64,000 nt of DNA from an uncultured Eubacteriales bacterium (GTDB taxonomy: Bacteria; Bacillota; Clostridia; Oscillospirales; Acutalibacteraceae): positions 21,004 to 85,003 of the forward strand of contig OMWP01000010.1 in the NCBI GenBank assembly GCA_900314795.1. Reading direction: 5' to 3'. A model generated the notes under the pieces. The model had not been told where the DNA came from. It did no database searches and was given only the letters and a program-made list of their open reading frames with translations. Numbering within the stretch: position 1 is the stretch's first letter; every line of letters begins with the position of its first letter. Of this stretch, positions 21,866-60,252 are shown in pieces. The translations under genes were made by a program, and so were the position numbers.

Positions 21866-21990
21866 GAAGTTGAAAGTTGACAGTTGAAAGTGGAAAAATG
21901 TGGGAAACACTCGCGTTTTGATTGATATGGAATTCATTTGAGGGCGAAGCCCTCCCTTAACTTTCCACTTTCCACTTTCCATTTTCCACT
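21866..21990. repeat. RptD element
   Basis: Palindromic array: GAAGTTGAAAGTTGACAGTT on one side and TTTCCACTTTCCACTTTCC on the other, around a GAGGGCGAAGCCCTC hairpin. Read on the minus strand its edge provides the TAG stop of the adjacent acyl-CoA synthetase gene. Confidence 0.6.
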
Positions 21991-25239: not shown

Positions 25240-27504
25240 TTACAGCTTATTGCGCTGGATCTTGCCGCTGATCGTCTTGGGCAGGCTGTCCTTGAAGACG
25301 ACGATACGCGGATATTTATACGGAGCGGTATGGGTCTTGACGTAGTCCTGGATCTCCTTCTTGAGCTCGTCGGTACCCTCGGTTCCCTTGACGAGCACGA
25401 TGGACGCCTTGACGACCTGACCTCTTACAGGATCGGGCGCGGGAGATACGCCGCACTCGAGGACATAGGGCAGCTCCATGATGACAGACTCGATCTCGAA
25501 CGGTCCGATACGGTAGCCGGAGCTCTTGATGACGTCATCGGTTCTGCCGACATACCAGAAATAGCCGTCCTCATCACGCCAAGCGGTATCACCGGTGTGA
25601 TACATGCCGTCGTGCCACGCCTCTTTGGTGGCTTCTTCATTATTATAATAGCCCTTGAACAGACCGCAGGGAACGCGTTTGTCGGTGCGGATGATGATCT
25701 CACCGGGCTCGCCGTCGGGAACAGGATTGCCGTCGGGATCAACGATATCGATGTCATAGCCGGGGATGGGCTTACCCATCGAGCCGAGCTTGGGGGTTGT
25801 ACCGAAGAGGTTGCCGATGGTGAGAGTGGTCTCGGTCTGACCGAAGCCCTCCATGATCCTCAAGCCCGTCGCCTTGCGGAACTGGCGCCAGACCTCGGGG
25901 TTGAGCGCCTCGCCTGCCGTTGTCATATGAGTGATGCTCGACAGATCGTACTTGCTCAGATCCTCCTTAATCATCATGCGCAGCATGGTAGGCGGCGCGC
26001 AGAAGGTGGTGATGTTATATTTTTTGAACATCGGCAGGATGTCGTCCGCGTGGAAGCGGTCGAAGTCGTAGGTGAAGACCGCACCCTCACTGAGCCACTG
26101 ACCGTAGAACTTGCCCCATAACGCCTTACCCCAGCCGGTGTCGGAGATGGTGAAGTGCAAGCCGTCGGGGTCAACGCCGTGCCAGTACTTGGCGGTGACA
26201 TAGTGACCGAGCGCATATTTGTAGCTATGGTTGGCGATCTTCGGATAGCCTGTCGTACCCGAGGTAAAGAACATGACCATGGTGTCGTCGCCGCAGGGGG
26301 TCTCGACCGTGCGATAATAATGGGTGGAGTACATCTCAAACTCCGCGTCAAAGTCATGCCAGCCCTCTCTGGTGCCGCCAACCATGATCTTGGTTTGTAA
26401 GGTCGGAGAGGTCTTCTGCGCTTCATCGACGGAATCGGCAACCAGACCGTCGGCAGTCGCGACGATCGCGGAAACGCCCGCAGATTGGAAACGATACTCA
26501 AAGTCATGCGCCAACAGCTGGTTGGTCGCGGGGATCGCGATCGCGCCCAGCTTATGCAGCGCGAGCATGCTGAACCAGAACTGGTAATGGCGCTTTAACA
26601 CCAGCATGACACGGTCGCCCTTCTTGATGCCGAGGGACTTGAAGTAGTTCGCCGCCTGATTGGAACGGCGCTTCATATCGTTGAAGGTAAAGCGGCGCTC
26701 GACCATGTTCTTATCCACATGGAGCATCGCGAGCTTATCGGGTGTGTTATTCGCGATCGCGTCAACGCAGTCGAACGCAAAGTTGAACTTATCCTCATTG
26801 CGGAAGCTGATCGCCTTGAGGCAGCCGTTCTCATCCTCGAGGGTGCGAACGAACTGACCCGTGATAGCGGATTTTTGCTTGACATGCGCCTTCATGACCT
26901 CGTCATCGCGCTCCTCCGCCTCTTTCTCACCGGGCAGGATGATGGCGATGAACTTGACGTCCTCGCCGCCGATCGCGATCATGCCGTGAGGCGTGGAGGA
27001 ATTATAGTAGATGCTGTCGCCCGCAGCGAGCTCCTCAAAGTTGTTGCCGATCTGGATCTTCATCTTGCCCGACAGGACAAAGTCGAATTCCTGTCCCGCG
27101 TGCTTGGTGAGGTGGATCGGCTTATTCTGCAGGCTCTCGTTATAGTCGTACTTACAAAAATACGGCTCGGCGATCTTGTTCTTGAACATCGGCGCGACGT
27201 TGACGATGGAGATACCCTCCTCCTCGGCAGTCTGTCTGCCGCCGCCGCGACGGGTCACGGTGTAGCTCTTGAGTCGTGCGGACTCACCCTCCAAAATATC
27301 GGTGATGCCCAGTCCGAACGCCAACGCGCACTTGTGGATAAAGGTGAAGGGAAAATCCTCGGTACCGTTCTCATACGCCTTGTACTCAGAGACGGATACC
27401 TCGGTTTTCTCCGCCATTTCCTCAACGGAGAAGCCGCTGATCTCGCGCATTTCTCGAATACGCTTAGCGACCTCGACGAGTTTTTCGTTATCTACAACTG
27501 ACAT
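25240..27504 (-). CDS. XRE-cupin-acyl-CoA synthetase fusion (copy 2)
   Basis: 754-aa paralog of the 21989-24274 gene with the same order: XRE helix-turn-helix (about 8-65, AKRIREMREISGFSVEEMAEKT), cupin (about 95-185, HAGQEFDFVLSGKMKIQIG, AAGDSIYYNSSTPHG), and acyl-CoA synthetase with FFTSGTTGYPKIANHS (about 423), GFGQTET (about 567), MYHTGDTAWRDEDGYF and GKIQRN at the end. The synthetase halves are much more alike than the sensor halves. ATG 27504 has GGGAGG seven bases upstream; the frame extends 18 codons further but without a site. A T-box leads it. A duplicated pair with different sensors suggests two acids or two amino acids served. Confidence 0.88.
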   Translation of the reverse strand: MSVVDNEKLVEVAKRIREMREISGFSVEEMAEKTEVSVSEYKAYENGTEDFPFTFIHKCALAFGLGITDILEGESARLKSYTVTRRGGGRQTAEEEGISIVNVAPMFKNKIAEPYFCKYDYNESLQNKPIHLTKHAGQEFDFVLSGKMKIQIGNNFEELAAGDSIYYNSSTPHGMIAIGGEDVKFIAIILPGEKEAEERDDEVMKAHVKQKSAITGQFVRTLEDENGCLKAISFRNEDKFNFAFDCVDAIANNTPDKLAMLHVDKNMVERRFTFNDMKRRSNQAANYFKSLGIKKGDRVMLVLKRHYQFWFSMLALHKLGAIAIPATNQLLAHDFEYRFQSAGVSAIVATADGLVADSVDEAQKTSPTLQTKIMVGGTREGWHDFDAEFEMYSTHYYRTVETPCGDDTMVMFFTSGTTGYPKIANHSYKYALGHYVTAKYWHGVDPDGLHFTISDTGWGKALWGKFYGQWLSEGAVFTYDFDRFHADDILPMFKKYNITTFCAPPTMLRMMIKEDLSKYDLSSITHMTTAGEALNPEVWRQFRKATGLRIMEGFGQTETTLTIGNLFGTTPKLGSMGKPIPGYDIDIVDPDGNPVPDGEPGEIIIRTDKRVPCGLFKGYYNNEEATKEAWHDGMYHTGDTAWRDEDGYFWYVGRTDDVIKSSGYRIGPFEIESVIMELPYVLECGVSPAPDPVRGQVVKASIVLVKGTEGTDELKKEIQDYVKTHTAPYKYPRIVVFKDSLPKTISGKIQRNKL

Positions 27505-27548
27505 GGTGTTTCCTCCCAATCGATGTTTATATGAAAAAGTATGATGAC

Positions 27549-27680
27549 TATGATACAAGTGGTCAGTGGTTAGTGATTAGTGGTCAGAATCTCAGGTCGC
27601 TTCACTCCGAAAAAAAATAATCGGGTACGGGCAGAGCCCGTCAACAACTGTTCACTGTTCACTGAAAACTGTTCACTAAA
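27549..27680. repeat. RptE element
   Basis: AGTGGTCAGTGGTTAGTGAT at the left and ACTGTTCACTGTTCACTG at the right, inverted, with the hairpin GGGTACGGGCAGAGCCCGT between. It lies in the leader between T-box 3 and the synthetase. Confidence 0.6.
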
Positions 27681-44873: not shown

Positions 44874-46517
44874 TTAGGCTAAACCGATGATCCAGTGATA
44901 GATCTCCTGACCGCCGTCGATGAACTCAAAATCCATCAGCGGATAGCGGGAGGACAGGATCTCATATAATTCCTCTTCCCTCTCTTTGGGAACGCTCAAC
45001 CCGCGGAAGACCACACAGGTCTCTTTCTCATCGATATCCTCGATCGATGCAATAGTATCCGCGATCGTCTTGACATAATCGGAACCGACGCTGACGATCT
45101 CGCCGTCAAGCAGGGCGATCTCATCCCCCTTGCGGCAGCTGATCTGGTGATAGCTGTAATCGCGGGAGGCGACCGTCTGGCTGACGGTGGCGATATTCTC
45201 GATACCGCTCTTCATCTGTGATACACGGAACTGCGCGTCGTCGCTGTCGGGGACATCCATCGCCATCGCAAAGTAGCCCTGCGCAACGCTTTTGGATTCG
45301 ATCACGGTGATATTGTGACGTTTGGAAAGCTCGACCGCCTGATGCGCGGCGAGGATGATATTGGGATTGTTCGGCAGGATCACGATCTCGTCGGCGTCGA
45401 CCTCATCAAATGCCTCCAAGAACTCAGCCGACGATGTATTCATCGTCGTACCGCCGTCGATGACGATCGCACAGCCAAAATCCTCAAACAGCTTTTTCAT
45501 GCCCTCGCCGTTGACGACTGCGATCACAGCAAGGGGCTTGTGCTCCTTTTTCTTCGCGATTTCCAGATCATGCTCGTTGTGCTGCACCTGCATATTGTCC
45601 ATCTTGAAGGTCAAGAATTCGCCATACTGCTGTGCCAAGGCGATCACCTTGGCGGGATAGAGCGTATGGATATGCACCTTGACGCGCATCCCGTTGACGA
45701 CAACAGCAATCGAATTACCGAAAAAGCGGAGCTCCGAAATGAATTTCTGCTTATTAAAATTCTGTTGATAGCGTGTGTTGGTCAGGCGCTGGAGAATGAA
45801 CTCCGTGCAGTAGCCGTCCGAAAACTCAGAGGTCTCGTTGAACAACGATAGATCAACTAAAGGTTGTTCCGCTTTTTGAACCGGTACATCGACAAGCTCG
45901 ATCACCTCACCGTACAGGCACTTGAGCATGCCCTCCGTGATCAGGATGAATCCGTAGGCGCCGCTGTCGACCACACCGGCTTCCTTGAGCACGCTGAGCA
46001 TTTCCGGCGTAAAGGACAGCGTCTTGCGCATCTCGGCGATATACATCGACAGGATGGTTTCGATCGAGGAATTGCGCGTGATCTGCGTGCGGATATGCTC
46101 GATCCCCTCGCGGGTGACAGAGAGGATCGTACCCTCTACCGGATGCACGACCGCTTCATACGCGGTACGGTAACCGCGGATCAATCCGTTTCGCAGCTCC
46201 CCCGGTCCGATGAGCGGTGAACGCACCAGCTCATCCGCAAAGCCGCGGTAAAACTGGGAGAGGATCACGCCCGAATTACCGCGCGCGCCGAGCAGCATGC
46301 CGTCGGACAGACTGCGCAGATAAGCGCCGGCGTTTTCGTCGGACTTGGCGTAGCGGATACCGTTGCCGAGGGTCAGCGCCATGTTGGTGCCGGTATCACC
46401 GTCGGGAACAGGAAACACGTTGAGGCGGTTGACCTCTTCCTCGTGCTGTTGCAAAAACGCCAACCCGTTTTTTATCATTTTTTCCAGATGGATTCCGTTA
46501 ATTCTTCTCATAGACAT
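44874..46517 (-). CDS. FakA-like fatty acid kinase, second copy
   Basis: 547-aa DAK2/YloV family paralog of the 807-2483 gene. NVFPVPDGDTGTNMALTLGN (33-52) and MLLGARGNSGVILSQFYRG hold the kinase site; VDSGAYGF (about 195) and the DegV-like C-terminal half follow (VNGEGMKKLFEDFGC, ILPNNPNIILAAHQA). It would phosphorylate a FakB-bound fatty acid. A DegV/FakB gene lies 66 bases upstream on the same strand, giving a complete kinase pair, followed by a membrane hydrolase. The ribosome site is weak (AAAG). Confidence 0.85.
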   Translation of the reverse strand: MSMRRINGIHLEKMIKNGLAFLQQHEEEVNRLNVFPVPDGDTGTNMALTLGNGIRYAKSDENAGAYLRSLSDGMLLGARGNSGVILSQFYRGFADELVRSPLIGPGELRNGLIRGYRTAYEAVVHPVEGTILSVTREGIEHIRTQITRNSSIETILSMYIAEMRKTLSFTPEMLSVLKEAGVVDSGAYGFILITEGMLKCLYGEVIELVDVPVQKAEQPLVDLSLFNETSEFSDGYCTEFILQRLTNTRYQQNFNKQKFISELRFFGNSIAVVVNGMRVKVHIHTLYPAKVIALAQQYGEFLTFKMDNMQVQHNEHDLEIAKKKEHKPLAVIAVVNGEGMKKLFEDFGCAIVIDGGTTMNTSSAEFLEAFDEVDADEIVILPNNPNIILAAHQAVELSKRHNITVIESKSVAQGYFAMAMDVPDSDDAQFRVSQMKSGIENIATVSQTVASRDYSYHQISCRKGDEIALLDGEIVSVGSDYVKTIADTIASIEDIDEKETCVVFRGLSVPKEREEELYEILSSRYPLMDFEFIDGGQEIYHWIIGLA

Positions 46518-46583
46518 TCTTTACAAGCAGGGTTCATGGGCGCAACAACGCGCGCCCGTTCTTCAATGATATGTGGATGGAAA

Positions 46584-47519
46584 TCACTTGCCCTCGGAAA
46601 TAAACTGTTCGATCAAGACGCGTTCGGTGCTCAGATCATCGGAGATCGGTTTGCCGACATAATATGCCGCCATCAGTCCGGGTCCGACGTTGATACCGCA
46701 GAACGGATAGACGTCGTTGATATAGACCGCCTTGGGACGGAACTTCTCTTCGATCATTTTCTTGTACACCTCAGCCTGCGGATAACGGCAGGACTGGGCG
46801 ATGAAGATCACCTGATCCTCGGGGCTTTCGATGGTCGCTTCGATGTACTTCATCAAGACCGCATACGCCGCCTTAGCGCCCTTTGCCTTACCGAGAACGG
46901 TCGTCATACCGCCGGAATCGAATTCGCCGATGGGCTTGATCCCGGCGAGGGTGCCGAAAAACGCCTTGGGATGCGTGAGTCTGCCCTTCTTGGCGACAAA
47001 GCTCAGATCATCCAGCCAGCCTGCCTGATGGAAACGATTCTTGTTCTGCTCCAGATAAGCGCACACCTCTTCAAAGCCCTTGCCCTCACTGCGCAGCATC
47101 GCTGCGTGTACGACCATCAAGCCGAAGCCGGGGCCGTAGCGCATGGAGTCGACCAGTTGGATCTTGGAGTCGGGATACTTAGAAAGGATGTTTTTGCGTG
47201 CGGTTGTCGCAAAATCAAACGAGCCGGACATGGCGCTCGAGATCGTAATGCAGATGATCGGCTTGCCGTCTTTCACATATGTCTCAAACGCCTTTTCGTA
47301 CTCCGCTGTGTTCGGAGGCGCAGTCGCAAAGTCGGACGGATTCTTTTTCAGCTCCGCGTAAAAGTCCTCGCGCTTCACATCCTTCCACTCCATAAAGCTG
47401 GGTACATCACCCTTATCGGGCAGGACAAGATGTCCGTCAATGATTTTGATATCATATTGTTTTTGGAATTCGGCGGAAAGGTCGCATCCCGCGTCCGCCA
47501 TCAAAATAAAATCGTTCAT
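46584..47519 (-). CDS. DegV family fatty acid binding protein (FakB-like)
   Basis: 311-aa DegV protein that carries a single fatty acid to the FakA kinase. Characteristic pieces: ILMADAGCDLSAEF (5-18), ITISSAMSGSFDFATTAR (about 93), VDSMRYGPGFGLMVVHAA (about 123), LSFVAKKGRLTHPKAFFGTL (about 172) and VGPGLMAAYYVG near the end. Of two adjacent ATGs, 47519 is six bases from GGAG and is preferred over 47522. Located before the FakA copy and after a hydrolase on the same strand, in a lipid-related gene series. Confidence 0.88.
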   Translation of the reverse strand: MNDFILMADAGCDLSAEFQKQYDIKIIDGHLVLPDKGDVPSFMEWKDVKREDFYAELKKNPSDFATAPPNTAEYEKAFETYVKDGKPIICITISSAMSGSFDFATTARKNILSKYPDSKIQLVDSMRYGPGFGLMVVHAAMLRSEGKGFEEVCAYLEQNKNRFHQAGWLDDLSFVAKKGRLTHPKAFFGTLAGIKPIGEFDSGGMTTVLGKAKGAKAAYAVLMKYIEATIESPEDQVIFIAQSCRYPQAEVYKKMIEEKFRPKAVYINDVYPFCGINVGPGLMAAYYVGKPISDDLSTERVLIEQFISEGK

Positions 47520-47616
47520 CATAATCTCCTTTGTATTTGCAGATAGAGAATTCTATCGGTTTATCGATCGTGTAATCGCGAGCATCCGCATATGTACATG
47601 CGTTGATCTTCGCATA

Positions 47617-48546
47617 TTATTCATGAAAATAGGTTTGAAGAAAGTCTGTCATCGCCGCTGTTACCTGTTGTTCACCGGTGCAAAAGGCGGTGGTATGACC
47701 CGCGCCCTCCACCACAACGAACGCCTTTTCGGCGGAGCAGGACTCATAGTTCTTACGTCCCTCCTCCAAGGAAACGGTCGAATCGGCTGTTCCGTGGAAA
47801 AAGAGGATCGGTTTTTTGGCATACCTTAAATGCTCCGTCGTCTTTTCCCGGATATCGATCTTCTGTTCCTTTTGACAGAGCCATCGGAGATACGGGATCA
47901 ACAGCCGCGGCAGATGCATGCGCTTCGCGTCGCTGTAGAGCTGGTTTTCCGCGGAAATAAAGCCGCAGTCGATCATCATGCACGGCACACGTTCCTCTGT
48001 CAAAGTGTCGGACAAATACGCGAGTGTGGAGCCGCCCATCGATGTTCCGTACAGCAAAACACGCTGTCTGTCATCCCGCCTGAGGATCTCTCGGATCCAC
48101 ACCGTAACGTCGTCTTTTTCACGCAGACCCATTCCGCAGCGATCGCCGCCGCTGCAGCCGTGGGCACGCTGATAGATCACCAGCACATTATAGCCCTGAT
48201 CGTAGAACCACCGTGCGGGCGCCACCAGATTCACATACGGATCGGCGTTGAAGCCGTGCACCATCAACACGGTGCGGTCAGCGGCGCGATCATACCGATC
48301 GCCGCACAGGGTCACCCCGTCCGTCGCAGTGACTTTGACGCGTTCAAACCCCTGATCGCGCAGGTAGTGCCAATCGCGCAGCATGCGCTTCTTAAAAGGT
48401 TCTATCGCCGGTTTATGGAGCTTTTCATCATCCAACTGCAAGACCTTATGTCTGCCGAAGATCGAGCGGTAACACACGATACCGGGCGCGATCCAGAAGA
48501 TGACAAAAAGCAAAATGATAGCAAGAATAAGATAGAGTATCAACAT
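47617..48546 (-). CDS. Membrane-anchored alpha/beta hydrolase
   Basis: 309-aa protein; N-terminal membrane helix (2-24) followed by an alpha/beta hydrolase domain with LMVHGFNADPYVN (about 94), IYQRAHGCSGG (about 123), elbow LLYGTSMGGSTLAY (about 162), HGTADSTV (Asp, about 252) and EGAGHTTAF (His, about 280). Full catalytic triad. ATG has AGGAAG upstream, 14 bases after the LRAT-like gene. Probably handles a lipid or acyl ester given the neighbours (inference). Confidence 0.85.
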   Translation of the reverse strand: MLILYLILAIILLFVIFWIAPGIVCYRSIFGRHKVLQLDDEKLHKPAIEPFKKRMLRDWHYLRDQGFERVKVTATDGVTLCGDRYDRAADRTVLMVHGFNADPYVNLVAPARWFYDQGYNVLVIYQRAHGCSGGDRCGMGLREKDDVTVWIREILRRDDRQRVLLYGTSMGGSTLAYLSDTLTEERVPCMMIDCGFISAENQLYSDAKRMHLPRLLIPYLRWLCQKEQKIDIREKTTEHLRYAKKPILFFHGTADSTVSLEEGRKNYESCSAEKAFVVVEGAGHTTAFCTGEQQVTAAMTDFLQTYFHE

Positions 48547-48560
48547 AATACTTCCTGTTT

Positions 48561-48974
48561 TTATTGATCAGAGTGAAAGCGCTGCCATTTGCGGCGCACC
48601 TCCAGCTCCTGTTCGGATATCTTTTCACCGAACACGATCTCATTGACAAAGTGCTCGCAGTTATTGTGGATCAGGTTGTAGCCGCCTTCACCGATGCGCG
48701 CTCTTGCGGCGGATACCGTTTTGTCGGGATTGTGACGTCTGAGCTTTTCTTTCAGCGTCAGCTGTGCCGCTTCTACCATGTTGCCGCAGGAAAAGGCATC
48801 GATATCGGTGGCGAGCACCTTAATATCCTGCTGATGCTGCAGATTCTCTGCTGTCGGCGGCAGTCCGAACGCGATCACCTCGTCCTCCGACACAAAGATC
48901 CCGTAATGATACACAGAGCCTAACTTGACGCGGATGATGTCGCCGTACCGACACTCCCGATAGACCCACTTCAT
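48561..48974 (-). CDS. LRAT/HRASLS-like (NlpC/P60 superfamily) acyltransferase or thiol hydrolase
   Basis: 137-aa protein with the permuted papain-like LRAT pattern: GDIIRVKLGSVYHYGIFV gives His23, and NNCEHFVNEIVFGEK gives Cys106, the thiol nucleophile in the NCEHFV motif. The second His of eukaryotic HRASLS enzymes is not clear (VIAFG in its place). Family members move acyl groups from phospholipids to amines or alcohols, or hydrolyse them. ATG overlaps the ACP stop as ATGA, and the ligase, ACP and LRAT genes form a tightly packed trio. Confidence 0.82.
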   Translation of the reverse strand: MKWVYRECRYGDIIRVKLGSVYHYGIFVSEDEVIAFGLPPTAENLQHQQDIKVLATDIDAFSCGNMVEAAQLTLKEKLRRHNPDKTVSAARARIGEGGYNLIHNNCEHFVNEIVFGEKISEQELEVRRKWQRFHSDQ

Positions 48975-49225
48975 TTGAGCTTTCCCTCGATATAGGTCAC
49001 GACGTCACCGATGGTATCAAAATCATTCATCGACACATTGTCGAACACGATCCCGAAGCTCTCTTCGATGGCGATCACCATGTAGAGCACCGACACCGAG
49101 TTGAAGCCCAGATCGGTAACGAGCTTGGTGCTTTCGTCACAATTCTTGATCAAATCGCTGTTCTTGGCGTCGGCAAAAAGCAAAATCTCTTTCAGTTTCT
49201 CAAAAATCTCTGCTCTGCTCAGCAT
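48971..49225 (-). CDS. Acyl carrier protein
   Basis: 84-aa carrier protein. The phosphopantetheine Ser is in LGFNSVSVLYMV (Ser43), where the usual DSL motif is NSV. Helix pattern and acidic ends are those of ACP (EIFEKLKEILLFADA, FDNVSMNDFDTIGDVVTYIEGKL). It overlaps the ligase stop by 7 bases and the LRAT-like gene by 4, so the three are translated together; the ligase probably loads it. Not the housekeeping fatty acid ACP, given its DNSL deviation and setting. Confidence 0.85.
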   Translation of the reverse strand: MLSRAEIFEKLKEILLFADAKNSDLIKNCDESTKLVTDLGFNSVSVLYMVIAIEESFGIVFDNVSMNDFDTIGDVVTYIEGKLK

Positions 49226-50733
49226 TTTTTATACCTCTTTATCTTCATACTGGGGGTGCGCTCAAAATCGGAATCACGGATGATGATGCGTGAGACGCGT
49301 TGGAAGGTGGGTAAGGTATTGTTGATCTTTTCGAGCGCGGCAGTCAGGTGCTGACCGATGTTTTCGATACCGAGTCGGGCGATCTCCGGCATGCGGGGCA
49401 CGACCTCGAGCGCTAAGATATGGGTGCCGTTCTCGGTCACATCCTCATACACCTGCGCGTCCTGGATCAGGCTCAGCTCGAGGAACTTGACCTCTAACTC
49501 CGCGGGAGAGATATTCTCACCGGAGGGCAGCACGATGATCTCTTTGATACGACCGGTGATATAGAGGAAGCCCTCGTCATCGACGCGAACCAGATCGCCG
49601 GTGCGGAAAAAGCCGTCCTCATCATAGACGCCTTCTTCCTCTTCTCCGACGTAGCCGGACATCATGTTCCTGCCCTTTAAGAGCAGTTCGCCGTCCACGA
49701 TCTTGTACTCCTGATTCGGATACAGCAAGCCGACGGATTCGGGCTTACTGAGATATTCGGGATTACCGGATACGAGATTAGCGCTTTCCGTCAAGCCGTA
49801 ACCGGGCAGCAGCATGATACCGAATTCCTTATGATACTCTTTGATCAGATAAGGCGGTACGGCAGCCGCGCCGCAGATGATCGCTTTGAGCGAATCGCCG
49901 AGCATATTCTTTCTGAATTTCTTGGAGAGGTTGAGCGCCATTTCCGCCAGTGCGGGTACAGCCACCAGGATCGTCGGACGGAACACCGCGATATCGCGGA
50001 ACATGTCTTTATTATTACGGCAGATAAATAAGGTAGAGCCGGTGTACAGTGAGGTCATCAGATTACGGATCAAGCCGAACACATGGGACAGCGGCAGGAT
50101 CAGCAGATAGCGCTGATGGAACACATCCCGATAGCCGTAGCAGCCGTTGACCGTGCCCTGCATGACAGCGGCATTCGAAAGCAACGCGCCCTTGCTTTTG
50201 CCGGTCGTACCGCCGGTGAACATGATCACGCACGGGGTATCGCCCGAGGGGAACGCCATTTCGGTCAAGGTATCGCCCTGTGTATCGGATGCAATCAGCG
50301 TAACATCGGGACGTTTTTCGGCTGTGATCGCCGTATTCTCCTGCAACGACGGATGATAAAGGATCATGTCAAGACCGTACTTCATCGTACAGCCGAACAC
50401 CGTCATTGCATCGAGCTGAGCGGGTAAGATCACAGCGGTATAGCCGAGGGTCGTCACCGCCAAAAACGAACGGACAAAATCATAGGAATTCGGGCAGTAG
50501 ATGCCGACGCGCAGGGCTTTTTCATCACTTTTGATGACGGTGCGCAGGCGGCTGACATCCGCTTCGATCTGAGCGTAGGTATAGCGTTTGCCGTCATCCT
50601 CGATCGCGACTGTGTCGGGATCATTCGTGACAGAAGCCTGCCACATCTCGGACACGCTGTCATAATCGATGATACGCTCGAATTGCTCCGGATCGGTATA
50701 TTTTTTGAAGATCTCTTTAGTAGGACTTTGCAT
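49219..50733 (-). CDS. AMP-forming acyl/ACP ligase
   Basis: 504-aa ANL ligase with MFTGGTTGKSKGALLS (about 170), LPLSHVFGLI (about 212), GYGLTES (about 315), FFRTGDLVRVDDEGF (about 390), GRIKEIIVLPSGENISP (about 408), and a C-terminal region ending RTPSMKIKRYKKC with the catalytic lysine among several. The partner ACP gene overlaps its 3' end, so an acyl-ACP synthetase role is the best guess. Start has GGAGGGAG. The next gene upstream (PlsC 2) is 96 bases away across an RptA copy. Confidence 0.87.
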   Translation of the reverse strand: MQSPTKEIFKKYTDPEQFERIIDYDSVSEMWQASVTNDPDTVAIEDDGKRYTYAQIEADVSRLRTVIKSDEKALRVGIYCPNSYDFVRSFLAVTTLGYTAVILPAQLDAMTVFGCTMKYGLDMILYHPSLQENTAITAEKRPDVTLIASDTQGDTLTEMAFPSGDTPCVIMFTGGTTGKSKGALLSNAAVMQGTVNGCYGYRDVFHQRYLLILPLSHVFGLIRNLMTSLYTGSTLFICRNNKDMFRDIAVFRPTILVAVPALAEMALNLSKKFRKNMLGDSLKAIICGAAAVPPYLIKEYHKEFGIMLLPGYGLTESANLVSGNPEYLSKPESVGLLYPNQEYKIVDGELLLKGRNMMSGYVGEEEEGVYDEDGFFRTGDLVRVDDEGFLYITGRIKEIIVLPSGENISPAELEVKFLELSLIQDAQVYEDVTENGTHILALEVVPRMPEIARLGIENIGQHLTAALEKINNTLPTFQRVSRIIIRDSDFERTPSMKIKRYKKC

Positions 50734-50760
50734 AATCTCCCTCCGTTTATGATTGGAAAT

Positions 50761-50812
50761 TCGGTTGAGATTGCCGCGGGGCTAAACACGCGTGTTTGCC
50801 CCTCGCAATGAC
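50761..50812. repeat. RptA copy
   Basis: TCGGTTGAGATTGCCGCGGG, inner AAACACGCGTGTTT palindrome, CCCCTCGCAATGACTG. Its inner part is nearly the same as in the copy at 54197-54249. Confidence 0.7.
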
Positions 50813-50829
50813 TGTTTTAAATCAAACGA

Positions 50830-51480
50830 TCAGCGCCGAAACGCGATCGCTTTGAGTTCGTTTTCTTTTTCAAACAAGCGGTTGGTGATCTCTTCGATCT
50901 CTGCCATTGACGGACGGCCGGCATACATTTGATTGATATCGATCGGCTCGCCGATGACAACGCGCAGTCGGGATGAGCGGGGCTTATGCTCACATACATA
51001 GATCGGCACGATCGGCACCTTGGCGCGCATCGACATCAACACCATCCCGCTTTTGAACTGTCGCATCTCTCCCGAACCGTCGTTGATATGACCTTCGGGG
51101 AACATCGACACCAGATCGCCGCTTGTCAAGTGGTCATTGATGACCTTCATCGTTTGAAAGCCGATGTTCTTCGTATCGATCGAGATACACAGAACATGAT
51201 TCAAAAACCACTTCGCCTTGGTCTCATAAAACTCTTTATTGATGATAAAATGATGGCGGCGGTACCAGATCGCCAGCATCACATAGACAGGATCAAAAAA
51301 GCAGTTGTGGTTGGAGATCACCAACGCACCGCCTTTGATCTTCTTTTTCGCGGTCTTGTTCTCATAGATGATCTTCGGTCGATACCACAGCAGCGTCGGG
51401 ATCGCGCCCGTCACGCGGACAAAATCGACAAAGAAGTATCGGGGTGAAAACAACTTCGCTTTATTTGCTTGATCGTTCAT
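50830..51480 (-). CDS. 1-acylglycerol-3-phosphate acyltransferase-like (PlsC) protein 2
   Basis: 216-aa membrane-associated acyltransferase of the PlsC type: ISNHNCFFDPVYV (about 55) gives the NHx4D motif, and SMFPEGHINDGSGEMRQFKSG (in part, about 124) gives the FPEG motif and the substrate loop; VPIVPIYV (about 155) follows. It acylates glycerolipid or a similar alcohol using acyl-ACP/CoA. The start lies 20 bases inside the 3' end of the other PlsC gene, so the two are coupled. Two different PlsC proteins side by side suggest an sn-1/sn-2 pair or a non-glycerol acceptor. Confidence 0.85.
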   Translation of the reverse strand: MNDQANKAKLFSPRYFFVDFVRVTGAIPTLLWYRPKIIYENKTAKKKIKGGALVISNHNCFFDPVYVMLAIWYRRHHFIINKEFYETKAKWFLNHVLCISIDTKNIGFQTMKVINDHLTSGDLVSMFPEGHINDGSGEMRQFKSGMVLMSMRAKVPIVPIYVCEHKPRSSRLRVVIGEPIDINQMYAGRPSMAEIEEITNRLFEKENELKAIAFRR

Positions 51481-52102
51481 GCAGATTATTTCCTAAACTA
51501 ATGATTTTGTTCCTCATCAGGTCGGTCAGCGCGGCGATATTCTCTTTATCGCTGAGCTTGGGATCGGCGACCTGTGAGGGAATGATCGGTGTGCCGATGA
51601 TCACGCGGGCACGTTCTTTTGAATTGAAGTACGAGCCGTTGGTCACCATCGGGATGATCGGTGTATCGGTCATCAGCGCGAGATACGCCGCGCCGGTTTT
51701 AAACGGCAGCGGTCGGGGTTCATCCTTGCGCGGCAGTCTGCCCTCGGGACAGATCCCGATCACACCGCCTTTTTCGAGGATCTTTTCGCACTTCGCCATA
51801 AAAGCAAAATCATGGGAATCGCGGTCAACACAAATGCCGCCGAGCATCCGAAGAAAAGTGCCCAACACCGGCTTCTTCATCACCAGCTCAGACATCTGGA
51901 ACCGCAGGGTACGTCCGAAAAAGACGAACATCGCGAGCGGATAATCATATACGGACAGATGGTTGGAAATGAGGATCGCTTTCCCCTTGATCCGGCGGGA
52001 TTGCACCGCCTTATCTTCATAATATATCTTTTTGCGAAAACACAGGAGCTGGATCGGCCAGCCCGTGATCTTCACAAACCAATTCAACAAACAATAGAAC
52101 AT
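51461..52102 (-). CDS. 1-acylglycerol-3-phosphate acyltransferase-like (PlsC) protein 1
   Basis: 213-aa PlsC-type acyltransferase: ISNHLSVYDYPLAMFV (about 46, NHx4D), GICVDRDSHD (about 88) and CPEGRLPRKDEPRPLPFKTG (about 117; FPEG variant CPEG, with the family loop). N-terminal hydrophobic stretch FYCLLNWFVKITGWPIQLL. ATG 52102 preferred over TTG 52108. It overlaps PlsC 2 and follows the ligase-ACP fusion by 37 bases, so the activated acyl chain may be handed from the fusion to these enzymes (inference). Confidence 0.85.
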   Translation of the reverse strand: MFYCLLNWFVKITGWPIQLLCFRKKIYYEDKAVQSRRIKGKAILISNHLSVYDYPLAMFVFFGRTLRFQMSELVMKKPVLGTFLRMLGGICVDRDSHDFAFMAKCEKILEKGGVIGICPEGRLPRKDEPRPLPFKTGAAYLALMTDTPIIPMVTNGSYFNSKERARVIIGTPIIPSQVADPKLSDKENIAALTDLMRNKIISLGNNLHERSSK

Positions 52103-52139
52103 AATCAATCTTACGCATCATGATCGACAATCATGATCG

Positions 52140-54059
52140 TTACATTATATCAGAAAGGTAACGGTGGAAATCGGCAACGGATGACAGGTTTTTCTCTGTT
52201 GAGATCTTGACGGAAAACTCGTTTTCCATCGCGGATACCATGCCGAAATAATCGAGTGAGGTACCGCCCAGATCGAGGAAGAAATCCGCTCCGTCTGCAA
52301 TATCCTCCGCAGAACGCTCCAGTGCCGCGGCAAAGAACTCTTTGATCCTTTTTGCCAATGCGTCCTGCAAGCCCTCATCCTTTTTCAACGGCTTCACTTC
52401 GTGAAAACCGTTTTCTGCAAGCTGTTGCTGTAATCGGATCCGATTGAGCTTGAACTCATCGCCGACGATCAGCTGATCGCTGACATACAGGATCCGTTTG
52501 ATCTCAGCGTTGAGGTGCATTTCCTCCAACTTTTCCCTGATCGCCTGATCCAATGCGGAAAATCTATCCTCGCTGATAAAGCGGTTGACGGAGATCAACA
52601 ATGTCGGAACGGGATGTGCGCCGTCACGATCGCCGATCAAACAAATCTCGTTGACGTCTTTGAGTCTTAGCTGAGGCTCGATCAGATTCGGATTCAGGTT
52701 CTCGCCCGATACGCCGACGATCAGATCGTCCTTGCGACCAAGGATCTTATAATGACCGTTCTCACACACCGCCAGATCATGGGTGTTGAAGAAATCGGTG
52801 TTGATGATCTTCTTCTCGCCGTCCTCGATGATATAGCAGGCGATCGCCTTCCCCTTGACCTCCAGCTCGCCTTGATCGTTGATACGGTATTCCACACCGT
52901 CCATGGGCTTGCCGATATAGCCGTCATTGAGGATACTCGGCTTCTTGGACAGTTCAAGAGAAGTGATACCGATCTCGCTCATGCCGTAGCCGTCAGCAAG
53001 ATGATAGCCGATATTGTTAAAGAACCGCATCGTTTCCTTAGCGATCGACGAGCCGCCCGTGATCATAAATCGGATGCTGTCACCGAACAGATTGTCGCGT
53101 ACTTCTTTGAACGCGACGCGCGTGAACAGCGCACCGGCTGCGGAATCGCCGAGCTTGTCGCGCAGCTTCATCGCTTTCTCAAATTTACGGTCGGTCTCTT
53201 CCCCGCGCAGACGGATCGTCTTACGCGCTTGGCTGTAGACCGTCTCCCAAAACAGCGGCACGGCAAACAGGTGGGTAACGTGATGGCGCCGAACGGTACC
53301 GGTGATGGTCTCGGGCTTCATATCCTTCAGCTCAACAAAGGTGCGCGAAAAGAACGAAAACCAGATATAGACCGCTACCAATCCGAATACATGATAAAAC
53401 GGCAGGAAGGTCAACAGCTTCAAGCGATCCTGATAATGCCGCTTGACCTCGTTACACTCTTGGATGATGCCGTAACTGCCCTTGATTTGATAAAAAAGCT
53501 CCTCGGCGGAGTAGGCGCAGAGCTTGACATGGCGAGAGGTACCGGAGGTCATCACGATGATCTGTGTTCCGAACTTGTCGGGGGTATAGGTTTCATCCGA
53601 CCGCTTGATCTCATCGCTCATGATCGTCCTGACGGAATAGGTGCGCCGATCGGAGATCACCGCCTGTACATTGCAGTCACGGATGGCGCCCTCCACTGAC
53701 TCTTGCGGCAGGCGCAGGTTGATCAGCAACGGTCGAAAGCCGCACAAAAGGATCGCCCAAAAGCACTCGATCCACGACAGCGAATTGTCCATCGACAGCC
53801 CGATCACCGAACCGCGTTCCGCATCGGCAAGCAGCTTCTTCAATGACGCGGCACGCGCCATGATCCTTTTCTCGACCTCGCCGTAGGTGAAGCTCTCGAT
53901 ACGATAACCCGCGGATCGCTCATACATGATATTCTCTTTTTCCTGAAACATCAGGGAGAAAAGCGTCTCCATCGACAGCCCGCGTTCTTCAAAAGCGCGC
54001 AGCTTTGATTGGACAAAATCCTTGATGGTTTTATATTGTCCGAGCCCCAGATCACCCAT
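52140..54059 (-). CDS. AMP-binding ligase fused to a C-terminal ACP domain
   Basis: 639-aa protein: ANL ligase domain (about 20-555) and a C-terminal carrier domain (about 565-639) with LGGTSLDYF, Ser at about 612. The ligase P-loop reads MTSGTSRHVKLCAYS (about 170), an odd version of SGTTGxPKG that keeps the Lys but loses the second Gly; GYGMSEIG (about 362), CYIIEDGEKKIINTDFFNTHDLA (in part) and GRKDDLIVGVSGENLNP (about 430) are present. It may activate and load an acyl chain on its own ACP for the PlsC enzymes 31-37 bases downstream. First gene of the minus-strand lipid series. Ribosome site AAAGGGGTGA. Confidence 0.85.
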   Translation of the reverse strand: MGDLGLGQYKTIKDFVQSKLRAFEERGLSMETLFSLMFQEKENIMYERSAGYRIESFTYGEVEKRIMARAASLKKLLADAERGSVIGLSMDNSLSWIECFWAILLCGFRPLLINLRLPQESVEGAIRDCNVQAVISDRRTYSVRTIMSDEIKRSDETYTPDKFGTQIIVMTSGTSRHVKLCAYSAEELFYQIKGSYGIIQECNEVKRHYQDRLKLLTFLPFYHVFGLVAVYIWFSFFSRTFVELKDMKPETITGTVRRHHVTHLFAVPLFWETVYSQARKTIRLRGEETDRKFEKAMKLRDKLGDSAAGALFTRVAFKEVRDNLFGDSIRFMITGGSSIAKETMRFFNNIGYHLADGYGMSEIGITSLELSKKPSILNDGYIGKPMDGVEYRINDQGELEVKGKAIACYIIEDGEKKIINTDFFNTHDLAVCENGHYKILGRKDDLIVGVSGENLNPNLIEPQLRLKDVNEICLIGDRDGAHPVPTLLISVNRFISEDRFSALDQAIREKLEEMHLNAEIKRILYVSDQLIVGDEFKLNRIRLQQQLAENGFHEVKPLKKDEGLQDALAKRIKEFFAAALERSAEDIADGADFFLDLGGTSLDYFGMVSAMENEFSVKISTEKNLSSVADFHRYLSDIM

Positions 54060-55183: not shown

Positions 55184-55229
55184 AAACCGCGTACAGTCGT
55201 TTGTGAACTGTACGCGGTTTATTTTTTTA
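55184..55229. terminator. Strong terminator, bidirectional by symmetry
   Basis: 14-bp perfect stem AAACCGCGTACAGT/ACTGTACGCGGTTT, then ATTTTTTTATT on the plus strand; A-rich on the other side, so it may also stop the esterase transcript coming from the right. Confidence 0.85.
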
Positions 55230-55278: not shown

Positions 55279-56955
55279 CTACCGTCGCAGCATCTTGATG
55301 ACGCCGACACTCAGACCGATCACACCCACTGCGGCCAACGCCGCCAAGCCAATGGTTTTGTGCACAAAAGGCACGTTATAGTTCATTTCGGAATAGGACG
55401 GATTGATCATATAGCGCAGCAGCGGGAACAAGAGCTGGCGTTGTTCGGGCAGTACATCGTCCTGCATGTGGCTTTCTTTGCATAAGATCATGGTAGAACG
55501 GCTGAAAGGATCGTAACGCTTCCATTTGAGGTCTTTGACAGACGGATCACCCGTGCGGGCAAAGTTCGCCCACATGGTCATCACCTGCTTGGACAGTGCT
55601 TCGTCTCCGCGCTCACCGGTGAAGATGGTTTCATCGAGATTGCCGAACACATACGAGAGCTCGACCGCATGGCACGCGCCGCAATACTCGTTCGTGGAAG
55701 GCTCTGTCCAGTAGTACATATAGGTTCTGCCGCCGTAGCTCGAATGGCACTCCGCCTGTTTGACGGCAGGCAGTCGGAACATCATCTCATCATAGAACTC
55801 CGACATTTTCCAGATGCTGTAGCCGTCAAGTCGGTGCATGAACGCCTTGACGCGAGCCTGATCCTTTTGATCAAATGTTTTCAGATCGTTCTCGAACTTG
55901 ACGGGGATGCTGAAACGATACGGCACGATGCCGCCGATCTCCCCTACCCAGTACCGTGATTCGTCGCTGTTGGTACCGATCAGCATATCGATATGCGCCG
56001 ACCGGCCCGCTTCATACGCCTCATAGGGCTTTAAGGGGATCAGGCGACCGTCGCGCTGGGGGAAGTTATTGTAAGCGTTCAGCTTTTCATTCAGGCGCAT
56101 AAGCTCCTTTTCAGGGAGCGCCATGAGCTTCGCCATAGAATGGAAGCCGGTCTCTTCGATCAGTCGTCGTGTGAACGGCTTGCACTGCTCCTTGGAGAAG
56201 GTCAGCGCCACCGAACCGCTCTGAGCAATCACACGGCGGAATAAGCCCTTTGCTTTGGGGATGATCGGTAACAGCGAAACGCTCGCACCGCCGGCGGACT
56301 CACCGAAGATGGTGACGTTTTTGCGATCGCCGCCGAAGAACCCGATATTCTTCTGCACCCATCTGAGCGACTCGATCTGATCAAGAATGCCCAGATTCGG
56401 CGCATCGGCAAAATTCGATCCGCCCTTGAGCGATGAGAAATCCACAAAGCCCATCAAACCGATACGATAACCGACGGTGACAAGAATGATATCGGGATTC
56501 TGCCTCACAAAATTCGCGCCGTCATAGAGCGGATCAGCGGTACCGCCCCAGCCGAAACCGCCGCCGTGGAAAAATACCATGACAGGCTTTTTGGCGGAGG
56601 CATTGGTACGGTTCACCCAGATGTTCAGATACAAACAGTCCTCGCCCTGGGGATAGTAGGAGCCCTGCTCGGTCTCCCACTCGGTCTGGATCGGGCTTTT
56701 GCCGAAATAATATGCCTCATATACACCGTCGTTAGGCGCCGCGGGAGCAGGACGCTTCCATCGGCGACTGCCGACAGGGGGCTTTGCGTAAGGGATCCCA
56801 CGAAAAGCAAGGATGCCCTCATCCTGCTGTCCGACAAAGGTTCCGTTAAAACACTTGACAGCGGCAGACGGATGATAGGAGCCGTCAATTTTATGGTTCA
56901 CACCGTAAGATGCTCTGATCTTATCGCGTGCAGATAATGAAACTGTTTCAGACAT
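55279..56955 (-). CDS. Type-B carboxylesterase with C-terminal membrane anchor
   Basis: 558-aa carboxylesterase: FRGIPYAKPPVGSRRWKRP (about 51), EDCLYLNIWVN (about 104), FFHGGGFGWGG (oxyanion hole, about 128), IFGESAGGASV (Ser, about 214), TNSDESRYW (acid residue, about 326) and YVFGNLDE with ACHAVELSYVF (His, about 431). Catalytic triad complete. The last 25 residues (KTIGLAALAAVGVIGLSVGVIKMLRR) are a tail anchor, unusual for the family. ATG overlaps the NRPS stop (TAATG). It may release or remodel the NRPS product at the membrane (inference). Confidence 0.88.
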   Translation of the reverse strand: MSETVSLSARDKIRASYGVNHKIDGSYHPSAAVKCFNGTFVGQQDEGILAFRGIPYAKPPVGSRRWKRPAPAAPNDGVYEAYYFGKSPIQTEWETEQGSYYPQGEDCLYLNIWVNRTNASAKKPVMVFFHGGGFGWGGTADPLYDGANFVRQNPDIILVTVGYRIGLMGFVDFSSLKGGSNFADAPNLGILDQIESLRWVQKNIGFFGGDRKNVTIFGESAGGASVSLLPIIPKAKGLFRRVIAQSGSVALTFSKEQCKPFTRRLIEETGFHSMAKLMALPEKELMRLNEKLNAYNNFPQRDGRLIPLKPYEAYEAGRSAHIDMLIGTNSDESRYWVGEIGGIVPYRFSIPVKFENDLKTFDQKDQARVKAFMHRLDGYSIWKMSEFYDEMMFRLPAVKQAECHSSYGGRTYMYYWTEPSTNEYCGACHAVELSYVFGNLDETIFTGERGDEALSKQVMTMWANFARTGDPSVKDLKWKRYDPFSRSTMILCKESHMQDDVLPEQRQLLFPLLRYMINPSYSEMNYNVPFVHKTIGLAALAAVGVIGLSVGVIKMLRR

Positions 56956-59945
56956 TACAGCTTTCTCCTCAGAATAGTCTTTAAAAAGTCAAAGAAGTTG
57001 GTCTTGTCCATGACGTTCTTGTACAGCTCACCGAGTGTGACGTCCTTTTGAGAATCATATTTTACGATAGTCTGTACCAAACGGACAAAGTAATCGCGGA
57101 AGAGCTCCATACTGCTGTCCTCGTAGCGGCTGGCGGCAAAATCGATCATCAGCATCAGACCGTCCTCGCCGTCGAGGATCTCCATATCGAGGATCGTCTG
57201 GGACGCCGCCTGATTCTGGCGCACATCGATGGTCTCGACGTTGTAATTATCCAGTCCTCCCGTATCGCGGATATCCTGCTGATACAGGACATATGCCGCC
57301 TCGCCGTCGCCGATATCACAGGTGATGTCAACGTATGGATAGCAACAGTGCTCGATGCCCTTCTGGACCTGTTCGTGTACATCCGCGAACAGATCGCGCA
57401 GGGTCATTTTTTCATGGAGATGAGCGCCGACGGGCAGATCGCGGAACAAGAGACCGACCGTGTTCATCAGCTCCATCTCCTCGCGGCCGTTGTAGATCCA
57501 GCTGATCTTGATGTCGTTCTTGTTGTTATAGATCGCAATTGCGAGCATACCGACGGTGATGAAGAACTCGTTACGGCTGATCCTGTACTGATTCTCGATC
57601 TTCTTGAGCTGTGCAGGCTCTACGCCGAGTTCCGCGAAGATCTCACCGAGCTCATTCTCACGCGAGGTATGATCGACAGAAGGACTGCTCGACCATTTTA
57701 TATTATCATATCTGTCCTCGAAATACTTTTTGCTCTCCTGATAGAATTCCGTCTCCTGAGCGTGTTCACGCTGATGGAGCATGTAGTAATAGTAGTCGGG
57801 TTCAGGCTGAGCGCCCATATAGACCTTGCCGACATTTGCCATAAACACCTTGAAGGAGGTGCCGTCGAAGAGGGTGTGGTGTACGTCAAAGAAGATATAG
57901 GCATTCTTCTCCGTTTCAAAGACACGGCAGCGAAAGAGCTTGCCGCCGATGATCTTGAACGGCTGTACCAGATTATCCTTGATGTTATCAAACTCAAATT
58001 CGCTGAGCTTTTCGACATGGATCTCCTCGAGTATCTCGGGGGTATAACGCTGGATGACCTCACCATCCTCGTTGAAGTGGAAGGTCGTCAACAGCGCGGG
58101 ATGGTTCCTGATAACGGTATACATGGTATCCGCCATTTTCTTCGGCTCAAAGATGGTCTTATCCAGCTTCATGACGGTATACAGATTGTACATCGTCGAC
58201 TTCGGTGTATAGAGCTGATAGTCTACCATATACAGCATCTCAGCAGTCAAAGGATGATCCCGCTTGATGGATTTCTCCTGGATGACGTCGGGAGAATCGT
58301 CTCCCGCTTTCGCGCGTCTTTGCGTATAGATCTCGGCGATCTTCTCAGGCGTTCTGCCGCGGAAGACATCGCCCGCGTTGAGTCCGGGCAAGTTACTTTC
58401 GGTGATCAAACGGATGGAGGTCAGCGAATCGCCGCCCATCTCATAAAAGTCATCGTGAATACCGACTTGCTCGAGCTTGAGGACGGTCTCCATCGCGTGA
58501 CAGAGCTTCTCCTGCGTCTCGTTCTCGGGAGCGACATACTCGGTCTTGAAGTCGTCAGCCTCGGGCGCGGGAAGCGCCTTACGATCCATCTTGCCGTTCG
58601 GCTTTAAGGGAACCTTATCGATCTTGATAAAGTAAGCGGGGATCATATAATACGGCAGGCGCTTAGACAGCTCCGCTCTCAATTTGTCAGAATCCACTTC
58701 GATGTCGTCGATATAATACGCGCAAAGGAAGCTCTTGCCGCTTTCTTCAAAGCCGCGTGCCGCAGCCCATTCGATGCCGAGCGCCTGCTTGACGGCGGCT
58801 TCGATCTCGGCGGGCTCGATACGGTTACCGTTGATCTTGATCATATCGTTGGATCTGCCGAGCAGGACATAGTTACCGTCGGACTCACGGCGCGCAAGAT
58901 CACCGGTATGATAAATACCGTTTTGGAACGCCTTCTCGGTTTCCTCCGGCAGATTCAGATAGCCGCGCACATAGGGATTCTCAAAGCACAGCTCGCCGAT
59001 CTCACCGTCCTCGACCTCGTTGCCGTCCTCACCGATCAGGGTGATCTTGGTCTCGATCTCCGGCTTACCGATGGGACAGGTCTCATACGCCTTATCGATC
59101 GTGAATACGCCTACCGCGAAGCCGCTTTCGGACGCCGCGTAGACATTGATCAGCTCCACATTGGGATTATAAAGGTTGTTCGCAGGTTCACTGCCGACTA
59201 CCAGCATACGCAGGAAGGGACCGGTGGTATTGCCGAGCATGCGAACATAAGAAGGCGTCAGGAAGGTGACGCTGATGCGCTTTTCAAGGAAATAGGTCTT
59301 CAGCGCGAGGGGGTTCTTGATGGTCGCGTAGCTGACGACAAAGAGCTTGGCGCCCTCGATGCTGAACAGCTTCAAAATAAGGATGACGGAGGCGACAAAG
59401 TTCATCGGCGCGAGCAGTGCGACGCGTTCCTTGCCGGTGAAGGGATCCTCACCGCCTACGCGGATCGATTCGATCGCGCGGCTGAGGTTGCCGTATTCGT
59501 GCAGCACGCCCTTGGGATTGCCTGTCGTACCGGAGGTATAGATCGCGTATGCCGCGTCATGCAGATCGGTCTTTTCGTGTCCCGACAAAGGATCACATTT
59601 CATGATATCGTCCCAATTGTCGGCATTCAGCTCCGCCTTACAGCCGCAATCCTTGCGGATATAGGCGATACGCTCGGGCGCATAGGTATCTTCGACCAAC
59701 GCCCATGCGGCACCCGCTTTCCATACGCCGAACATCGCGATAACGGGCAAAACACCGCGGGGCAGTTTGATCAGGACAAAGTCCTCTCTCCCTATCCCCT
59801 GCTGCTTCAAGTAGGCGTAAACACGTCCGCTCATATCTTCGAGCTGAGCATATGTAAGACCCCTTGCGTGCGCGTCGTCATACAAGACCGACGCCTGTGG
59901 ATCATTTTGGGTATACTGCTCCAATAATTGCATTATATCTGTCAT
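56955..59945 (-). CDS. Single-module NRPS, A-PCP-C, without thioesterase
   Basis: 996-aa non-ribosomal peptide synthetase. Adenylation domain about 1-465: YTSGTTGNPKGVLHEYG (about 138, A3), YAASESG (about 272), GIYHTGDLARRESDGNYV (about 345), GRSNDMIKINGNRIEP (about 365) and PNGKMDRKAL (catalytic Lys, about 452). In the substrate pocket, aligned to GrsA FDAS, the sequence is NFVASV: the Asp that binds the alpha-amino group is Val, so the substrate is probably not an alpha-amino acid. PCP about 480-550 with GGDSLTS. Condensation domain about 570-996 with VHHTLFDGTS (HHxxxDG, about 695). The terminal C domain needs an acceptor in trans. Operon: STAS gene 10 bases upstream, carboxylesterase overlapping downstream. 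Confidence 0.9.
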   Translation of the reverse strand: MTDIMQLLEQYTQNDPQASVLYDDAHARGLTYAQLEDMSGRVYAYLKQQGIGREDFVLIKLPRGVLPVIAMFGVWKAGAAWALVEDTYAPERIAYIRKDCGCKAELNADNWDDIMKCDPLSGHEKTDLHDAAYAIYTSGTTGNPKGVLHEYGNLSRAIESIRVGGEDPFTGKERVALLAPMNFVASVILILKLFSIEGAKLFVVSYATIKNPLALKTYFLEKRISVTFLTPSYVRMLGNTTGPFLRMLVVGSEPANNLYNPNVELINVYAASESGFAVGVFTIDKAYETCPIGKPEIETKITLIGEDGNEVEDGEIGELCFENPYVRGYLNLPEETEKAFQNGIYHTGDLARRESDGNYVLLGRSNDMIKINGNRIEPAEIEAAVKQALGIEWAAARGFEESGKSFLCAYYIDDIEVDSDKLRAELSKRLPYYMIPAYFIKIDKVPLKPNGKMDRKALPAPEADDFKTEYVAPENETQEKLCHAMETVLKLEQVGIHDDFYEMGGDSLTSIRLITESNLPGLNAGDVFRGRTPEKIAEIYTQRRAKAGDDSPDVIQEKSIKRDHPLTAEMLYMVDYQLYTPKSTMYNLYTVMKLDKTIFEPKKMADTMYTVIRNHPALLTTFHFNEDGEVIQRYTPEILEEIHVEKLSEFEFDNIKDNLVQPFKIIGGKLFRCRVFETEKNAYIFFDVHHTLFDGTSFKVFMANVGKVYMGAQPEPDYYYYMLHQREHAQETEFYQESKKYFEDRYDNIKWSSSPSVDHTSRENELGEIFAELGVEPAQLKKIENQYRISRNEFFITVGMLAIAIYNNKNDIKISWIYNGREEMELMNTVGLLFRDLPVGAHLHEKMTLRDLFADVHEQVQKGIEHCCYPYVDITCDIGDGEAAYVLYQQDIRDTGGLDNYNVETIDVRQNQAASQTILDMEILDGEDGLMLMIDFAASRYEDSSMELFRDYFVRLVQTIVKYDSQKDVTLGELYKNVMDKTNFFDFLKTILRRKL

Positions 59946-59955
59946 GGGCCACTCC

Positions 59956-60252
59956 TTATTTGACAGTCAATACATCCGAGAAACCGGTTACTTCAAAAAT
60001 CTCCTTGACCATATCGTTAGCGTTGATGATCGTCATGGAACCCTGGTTATTCATCTTCTTTTGCAGCATCAGCAAAAGGCGCAGACCTGCGGAAGAGATG
60101 TAATCGAGCTGTTTGAAATCAAGGATCAGCTCTTTTACGTTATCAAGGCTGCCTGTGAGCTCCTGCTCTGCCTGAGGGGTGGTGTTGGTGTCCAGTCGAC
60201 CCTCAAATGCCGCGGTGAGCTTTGTACCTTCAAGTTTCTTTGTAACAGTCAT
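59956..60252 (-). CDS. STAS domain protein, anti-sigma factor antagonist type
   Basis: 98-aa single STAS domain. FEGRLDTNTTPQAEQEL (16-32) and LDFKQLDYISSAGLRLLLML (about 44-63) are the classic anti-anti-sigma pattern, with a phosphorylatable Ser at SSAGL (Ser54). In Bacillus such proteins bind an anti-sigma kinase; no kinase (RsbW/SpoIIAB type) or phosphatase is nearby. ATG 60252 has AAAGGAG ten bases upstream; a longer frame to 60312 lacks support. The TAA is followed at once by the NRPS ribosome site, so the two genes form one operon, an odd pairing. Confidence 0.88.
   Translation of the reverse strand: MTVTKKLEGTKLTAAFEGRLDTNTTPQAEQELTGSLDNVKELILDFKQLDYISSAGLRLLLMLQKKMNNQGSMTIINANDMVKEIFEVTGFSDVLTVK

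Follow-up and report, generated by a model that had tools for sequence, protein, structure and literature searches.

A STAS–NRPS–esterase operon with an adenylation domain lacking the amino-binding aspartate and a predicted tail anchor on the esterase

The minus strand of the window, by which we mean the whole stretch of 64,000 nucleotides of DNA that was analysed, carries an operon for a STAS-domain protein, a single-module NRPS with adenylation (A), carrier (T) and condensation (C) domains, and a type-B carboxylesterase with a hydrophobic C-terminal tail. The A domain lacks the amino-binding aspartate, and the account that we put forward, with slightly less than even confidence, is that this NRPS may be a stand-alone acyl ligase working in the manner of AstA, accompanied by a membrane esterase and subject to post-translational control. 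The first-pass annotation had proposed an operon of these three genes, and three minus-strand open reading frames are indeed found at the positions given, with the Pfam matches listed here:

59956–60252, minus strand: STAS-domain protein of the anti-sigma-factor-antagonist type, 98 aa, motif YISSAGLR with a phosphorylatable serine (Pfam STAS, 4.4e-14)
56955–59945, minus strand: single-module NRPS, A-T-C, 996 aa (Pfam AMP-binding 1.2e-50, PP-binding 2.5e-05, Condensation 1.9e-40)
58569–59936, minus strand: adenylation domain of the NRPS, from the alignment to LgrA; ten-site code V A I F V G V F A K
59394–59396, minus strand: codon of Val184, at the place of the amino-binding Asp235 (alignment)
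58425–58427, minus strand: codon of Ser507 in GGDSL, the phosphopantetheine attachment site (motif)
57861–57881, minus strand: HHTLFDG, catalytic motif of the condensation domain (motif; the C-domain model matches PDB condensation domains)
56961–57005, minus strand: predicted C-terminal basic amphipathic helix of the NRPS (hydrophobic moment; model helix 981–995, low confidence)
55279–56955, minus strand: type-B carboxylesterase, 558 aa, catalytic GESAGG (Pfam COesterase, 4e-99)
55318–55374, minus strand: C-terminal hydrophobic helix of the esterase, a putative tail anchor (hydropathy scan)
55184–55220, no strand: perfect 14-nt inverted repeat just beyond the esterase, between the convergent operon and a Bax-inhibitor-like gene

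The STAS gene starts with an ATG at 60252 that has AGGAG upstream. The 10-nt gap between STAS and NRPS contains GGAG, and NRPS and esterase overlap as TAATG; these junctions show a single operon with STAS as its first gene, as had been claimed. The inverted repeat beyond the esterase is probably a bidirectional terminator. Scans for promoters and terminators were uninformative, with 6 promoter-like sites versus 5.6 (sd 2.7) in shuffles and 7 terminator-like sites versus 5.0 (sd 1.9).

A search for the operon in other genomes had been suggested, and it gave 13 more NRPS orthologues in the 59 relatives searched, with 69–93% identity to the window's copy. Across the 14 same-genus loci, the window's included, STAS stands beside the NRPS in all 14 and the esterase in 13 (G034 is without it), which indicates that the three-gene grouping is more than chance. 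The identity to the window's proteins is 69–93% for the NRPS, 58–91% for the esterase and 47–88% for STAS. The chance of finding a STAS gene within 400 nt of a given gene is about 0.0017, calculated from the 11 STAS matches in the genome.

A wider scan took one genome per species and retained the best 80 of 341 relatives. This set overlaps the same-genus set (for example, L088 and G012:C14), so that the two counts are not independent. In the 80 loci, the NRPS has 66–93% identity and 78 copies are of 980–1045 aa. Judging from the record titles of these best 80, the relatives come mainly from the ruminant gut: 39 titles carry RUG, which we take to stand for rumen uncultured genomes, 21 carry RGIG or name a ruminant, 3 carry RUI, and the remaining 17 fall outside these groups. 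All 80 copies retain the A10 lysine, GGDSL and HHxxFDG. An A-T-C protein that ends in its C domain, without a release domain, might be thought a decaying fragment of a longer synthetase; the chance of this is next to negligible and already contradicted by the presence of all the motifs checked at such identities and lengths, and by a mean column identity of 83% for the NRPS among the 14 orthologues.

The arrangement around the NRPS is less uniform in the best 80 of 341 relatives. STAS is found immediately upstream in 50 of the 77 loci that have at least 500 nt of room and is not there in the other 27, and the esterase follows immediately in 66/80. The gaps between STAS and NRPS are of −4 to 32 nt in 46/51 cases, with starts that are first-start choices, and 48 of the 66 NRPS–esterase junctions are overlaps of 4 or 1 nt. 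Among the 14 loci without an immediate esterase, the esterase reading frame is present in L095 and L136 and overlaps the NRPS end further, L110 and L137 stop at a contig edge, and a MATE gene comes after the NRPS in L106, L138, L166 and L167. That the esterase is missing at some loci, with MATE instead in these four, counts against the account put forward above. Two loci that appear to come from isolates differ as well: L109 (Lachnospiraceae AC2029) has NRPS and esterase with no STAS upstream, and L120 (Ruminococcaceae P7) has the order PP2C-kinase-STAS-NRPS and lacks the esterase. Mapped onto the NRPS tree, STAS shows a minimum of 13 changes of state; for esterase versus MATE the minimum is 4, counted on loci that have one or the other. 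Given these changes of STAS and its absence from directly upstream in 27/77, the switch is not obligatory.

The absence of the amino-binding aspartate, which had been noticed in the window, proved general. In the alignment with LgrA, the pocket motif NFVASV falls on FDGS, which places a valine opposite the aspartate. The position of Asp235 is occupied by Val in 14/14 same-genus orthologues. Among the best 80 of 341 relatives, 79 have Val there and one has Ile, position 236 is Ala, and neither 235 nor 236 holds an acid in any of the 80. The ten-site code listed above was read by a script from the LgrA alignment, at what we presume to be the code's site numbers. A beta-alanine-type pocket, which we assume to require Asp at site 236, is ruled out by the Ala there. 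The other NRPSs of the genus have Ser or the usual Asp at the pocket position. The first A domain of an NRPS on another contig of the same genome (C33) has the same FVASV motif, and therefore this pocket type also starts longer assembly lines. One phosphopantetheinyl transferase match is found in the genome.

The A domain, therefore, has an aliphatic residue in place of Asp235, which is typical of keto-acid-activating A domains as described in excerpts of PMC10949194. Pfam gives just AMP-binding, PP-binding and Condensation in the NRPS module, with no ketoreductase, and therefore other non-amino acids are as likely as a keto acid; if the substrate were a keto acid, the lack of the usual ketoreductase would speak against a stand-alone ligase. 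A carboxylic acid without an amino group would be the substrate according to the pocket, and our guess is a branched-chain keto acid, or a short branched or aromatic acid. The fold and sequence of the domain are closest to those of the amino-acid-activating LgrA, as would be expected if it recognised an amino acid, common or unusual, in a different manner and gave an aminoacyl amide or ester. We consider this quite improbable, with Val or Ile at 235 and Ala at 236 in every one of the best 80 loci.

Three further AMP-binding ligase genes of the window were recorded. At 11977–14502, a xylose-isomerase-like TIM barrel is fused with an AMP-binding ligase, and at 21989–24274 and 25240–27558 there are two AMP-binding ligases, each with cupin and helix-turn-helix matches in front, of which the helix-turn-helix of the first is below Pfam's cut-off.

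The C domain comes last, as had been noted, and the Pfam order A-T-C with its catalytic motifs is that of a single-module acyl ligase. In five of the 14 genomes, the only condensation-family match is this NRPS's own domain (G005, G006, G007, G017 and G034, with completeness of 100%, 89%, 92%, 89% and 95%, respectively), and therefore no partner NRPS is needed; the remaining nine have 1–3 further condensation matches. Beyond the switch genes and MATE, the most frequent neighbour families in the best 80 of 341 relatives are a 231-aa protein lacking any Pfam match, present at 10 loci, and a Bax-inhibitor-like protein, present at 9; all other families are found in at most 6/80. Given that there is no second condensation domain in those five genomes and no common neighbour family, the C domain most likely uses a free acceptor and not a carrier-bound one. 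The models of the full NRPS (pTM 0.47) and of the C domain (pTM 0.76) were used in fold searches, which confirm the NRPS folds and leave the nature of the acceptor undecided.

The acceptor might instead be bound to a carrier, in which case the A-T-C protein would be a separate starter module that delivers to another NRPS or carrier protein by docking through its C-terminal helix. Short helices at NRPS ends can serve as docking domains, and the nearest relative in the same genome, at 31% identity, is the 1979-aa A-T-C-A-T-reductase of C33, with FVASV in its first A domain. This reading is unlikely, given that the five genomes above have no other condensation domain and that a second NRPS is not a conserved neighbour. 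The suggestion that a partner carrier lies in the nearby island did not hold either: as a general partner, the lipid island at 49219–54059 is rejected, being present in just 2 of the best 80 of 341 relatives (L088 and L090, both among the nearest relatives), a count in which short contigs hide some flanks. The lipid-like island itself, at 44874–54059, contains a FakA-like kinase, two PlsC-type acyltransferases and AMP-binding ligases, one of them with a carrier domain; its ligases and acyltransferases are also present in L088 and L090. A small LRAT-domain protein is encoded at 48561–48974.

The esterase has the COesterase fold and the catalytic serine motif of type-B carboxylesterases, and a search with it gave the operon copy as the sole match in this genome. 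The 66 operon esterases among the best 80 of 341 relatives have GESAGG in 62 cases and GESAGA in 2, and 2 have no letters there. In a 19-residue hydropathy scan of the window's protein, the C-terminal segment alone reaches at least 1.6, in agreement with the membrane-anchoring helix that had been described. With an 18-residue scan, the tails reach at least 1.6 in 55 of the 61 complete copies among the best 80; the esterase bodies checked peak at 1.31–1.84, and 11/15 of them also reach 1.6. The basic tails of the NRPS are similar in the first 40 loci examined, except for one truncated copy without a tail, and the hydrophobic moment of four of them is 0.39–0.41. Judged by hydropathy, the tails of NRPS and esterase suggest that both are placed at the membrane, where a transfer to lipid would be possible. 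The enzymes could then form a membrane acylation and deacylation pair, in which the NRPS would acylate a lipid or a hydrophobic alcohol or amine, the esterase would reverse or trim this, and phosphorylated STAS would switch the enzyme (and the MATE-kinase where present) directly and not via transcription. In this specific form, the proposal appears distinctly unlikely.

STAS matches NCBIfam TIGR00377 with 66.2 bits (cut-off 53.45), and the phospho-serine motif of partner-switching proteins is conserved in all 50 operon copies from the best 80 of 341 relatives, as SSAGLR in 48 and SSSGLR in 2. At least 31 of the 80 stretches, whose contigs end nearby, carry a PP2C phosphatase, a kinase or a MATE-kinase, with at least 27 having PP2C, 27 a separate kinase and 12 a MATE fused to a kinase. 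The motif and these neighbours mark STAS as a component of a partner-switching set. No kinase or PP2C match was found on the window's contig; a kinase–PP2C pair is present on contig C36 of this genome, where there is no STAS match. The 'anti-sigma partner' expected by the first-pass annotation is, therefore, probably better read as a kinase–phosphatase pair, which in sister loci lies close by and in this genome is found on a different contig.

The sequences of the C36 pair are consistent with this. Its PP2C was searched in 39 relatives, a set that leaves out G024–G035, and has full-length matches there solely in G012 (98%), G007 (70%) and G005 (60%); those of G007 and G005 are operon-linked, and that of G012 is not on the NRPS contig. 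The C36 kinase has 92% identity to its counterpart in G012 and 56–66% to linked kinases at three loci. Operon-linked proteins were also compared with the set from this genome: 17 of 19 kinases have the C36 kinase as their best match and 16 of 29 PP2Cs have the C36 PP2C, each at up to 70%. Against the assignment of the C36 pair to this STAS, the other 13 PP2Cs are closer to another PP2C of the genome (9 to one on C64 and 4 to those on C33). We read the STAS of the window and the C36 pair as a putative single regulatory set split between two places; the small STAS genes on C35 and C45 could be alternative partners of the pair.

STAS, an RsbW-like kinase and PP2C also make up the classical sigma-regulating set, and NCBIfam matches are to anti-sigma families. 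Accordingly, this STAS might control an ordinary sigma factor encoded elsewhere, its place in the operon reflecting co-expression without a direct link to the enzyme. We regard this as somewhat unlikely, given that such a set is also found next to other NRPS genes and that a MATE exporter carries its kinase domain as a fusion, observations that weigh weakly against it. Fusions of a MATE-family transporter to an RsbW-like HATPase_c_2 domain are encoded at L042:5901–7691 and L052:13820–15565. The latter lies in a locus on C33 of this genome (L052:7237–17910) that comprises STAS, the 1979-aa A-T-C-A-T-reductase, the MATE-kinase fusion, a PP2C–kinase fusion and a second STAS.

The stand-alone acyl ligase would work as follows. 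The A domain, with its hydrophobic pocket, would adenylate a carboxylic acid without an alpha-amino group and load it onto the carrier domain, and the C domain would form an amide or ester by passing the acyl group to a free amine or alcohol. The basic amphipathic tail of the NRPS and the tail anchor of the esterase would bring both to the membrane, where the esterase may trim, release or undo the product. An RsbW-like kinase would phosphorylate STAS and a membrane PP2C would remove the phosphate, a pair that for this STAS would be the one on C36; the phosphorylation state of STAS would select its binding partner, so that activity would be gated after translation. A compact set of enzymes without an obvious partner, frequent in ruminant-gut Firmicutes, probably makes an unrecognised small-molecule product, and it is small enough to be rebuilt in a laboratory strain. 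The repeated occurrence of STAS, kinase and phosphatase beside NRPS genes, together with kinase-fused exporters, suggests that protein phosphorylation switches secondary metabolism in these bacteria.

Compared with the open literature searched, the new features are a single-module A-T-C whose pocket is aliphatic, an esterase with a tail anchor, an exporter fused to a kinase and a split kinase–PP2C pair; the parts are known individually, unlike their combination and its product. That literature contained nothing relevant that links STAS, an anti-sigma antagonist or partner switching with an NRPS, and the word 'STAS' is absent from the excerpts of a rumen gene-cluster survey (PMC8241843). The excerpts of PMC5024094 describe AstA as a fungal A-T-C ester synthase of astellolide biosynthesis, which resembles the present NRPS in being a one-module A-T-C that uses a non-amino carboxylic acid and for which a free acceptor at the C domain is proposed. 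It differs in being fungal and of 1338 aa, in transferring aryl acids onto a sesquiterpenoid and in having no such operon; the resemblance is by description. FUM14 and SgcC5 are precedents for a free acceptor, with C domains that form ester bonds and, for SgcC5, also amides (excerpts of PMC10212144); these are bidomain and free-standing proteins, again likened by description. The AusA-like synthetase of C33 shares a first A-T-C module with FVASV and an upstream STAS; however, it goes on with A-T-reductase, has 31% identity and is below the cut-off of the AusA model. The esterase shares a catalytic domain with GESAGG with type-B carboxylesterases such as Est50 and para-nitrobenzyl esterase, from which it differs by the added hydrophobic C-terminal tail and the setting in an NRPS operon. 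The closest setting for the switch is mru0066–mru0071 of Methanobrevibacter ruminantium M1, described in 2010, where serine phosphatases, an anti-sigma factor antagonist and a MatE exporter stand beside an NRPS (excerpts of PMC2812497). That cluster belongs to an archaeon, its NRPS has two modules with a terminal release domain, and the excerpts name no esterase, whereas the operon of the window places a single A-T-C module directly before one.
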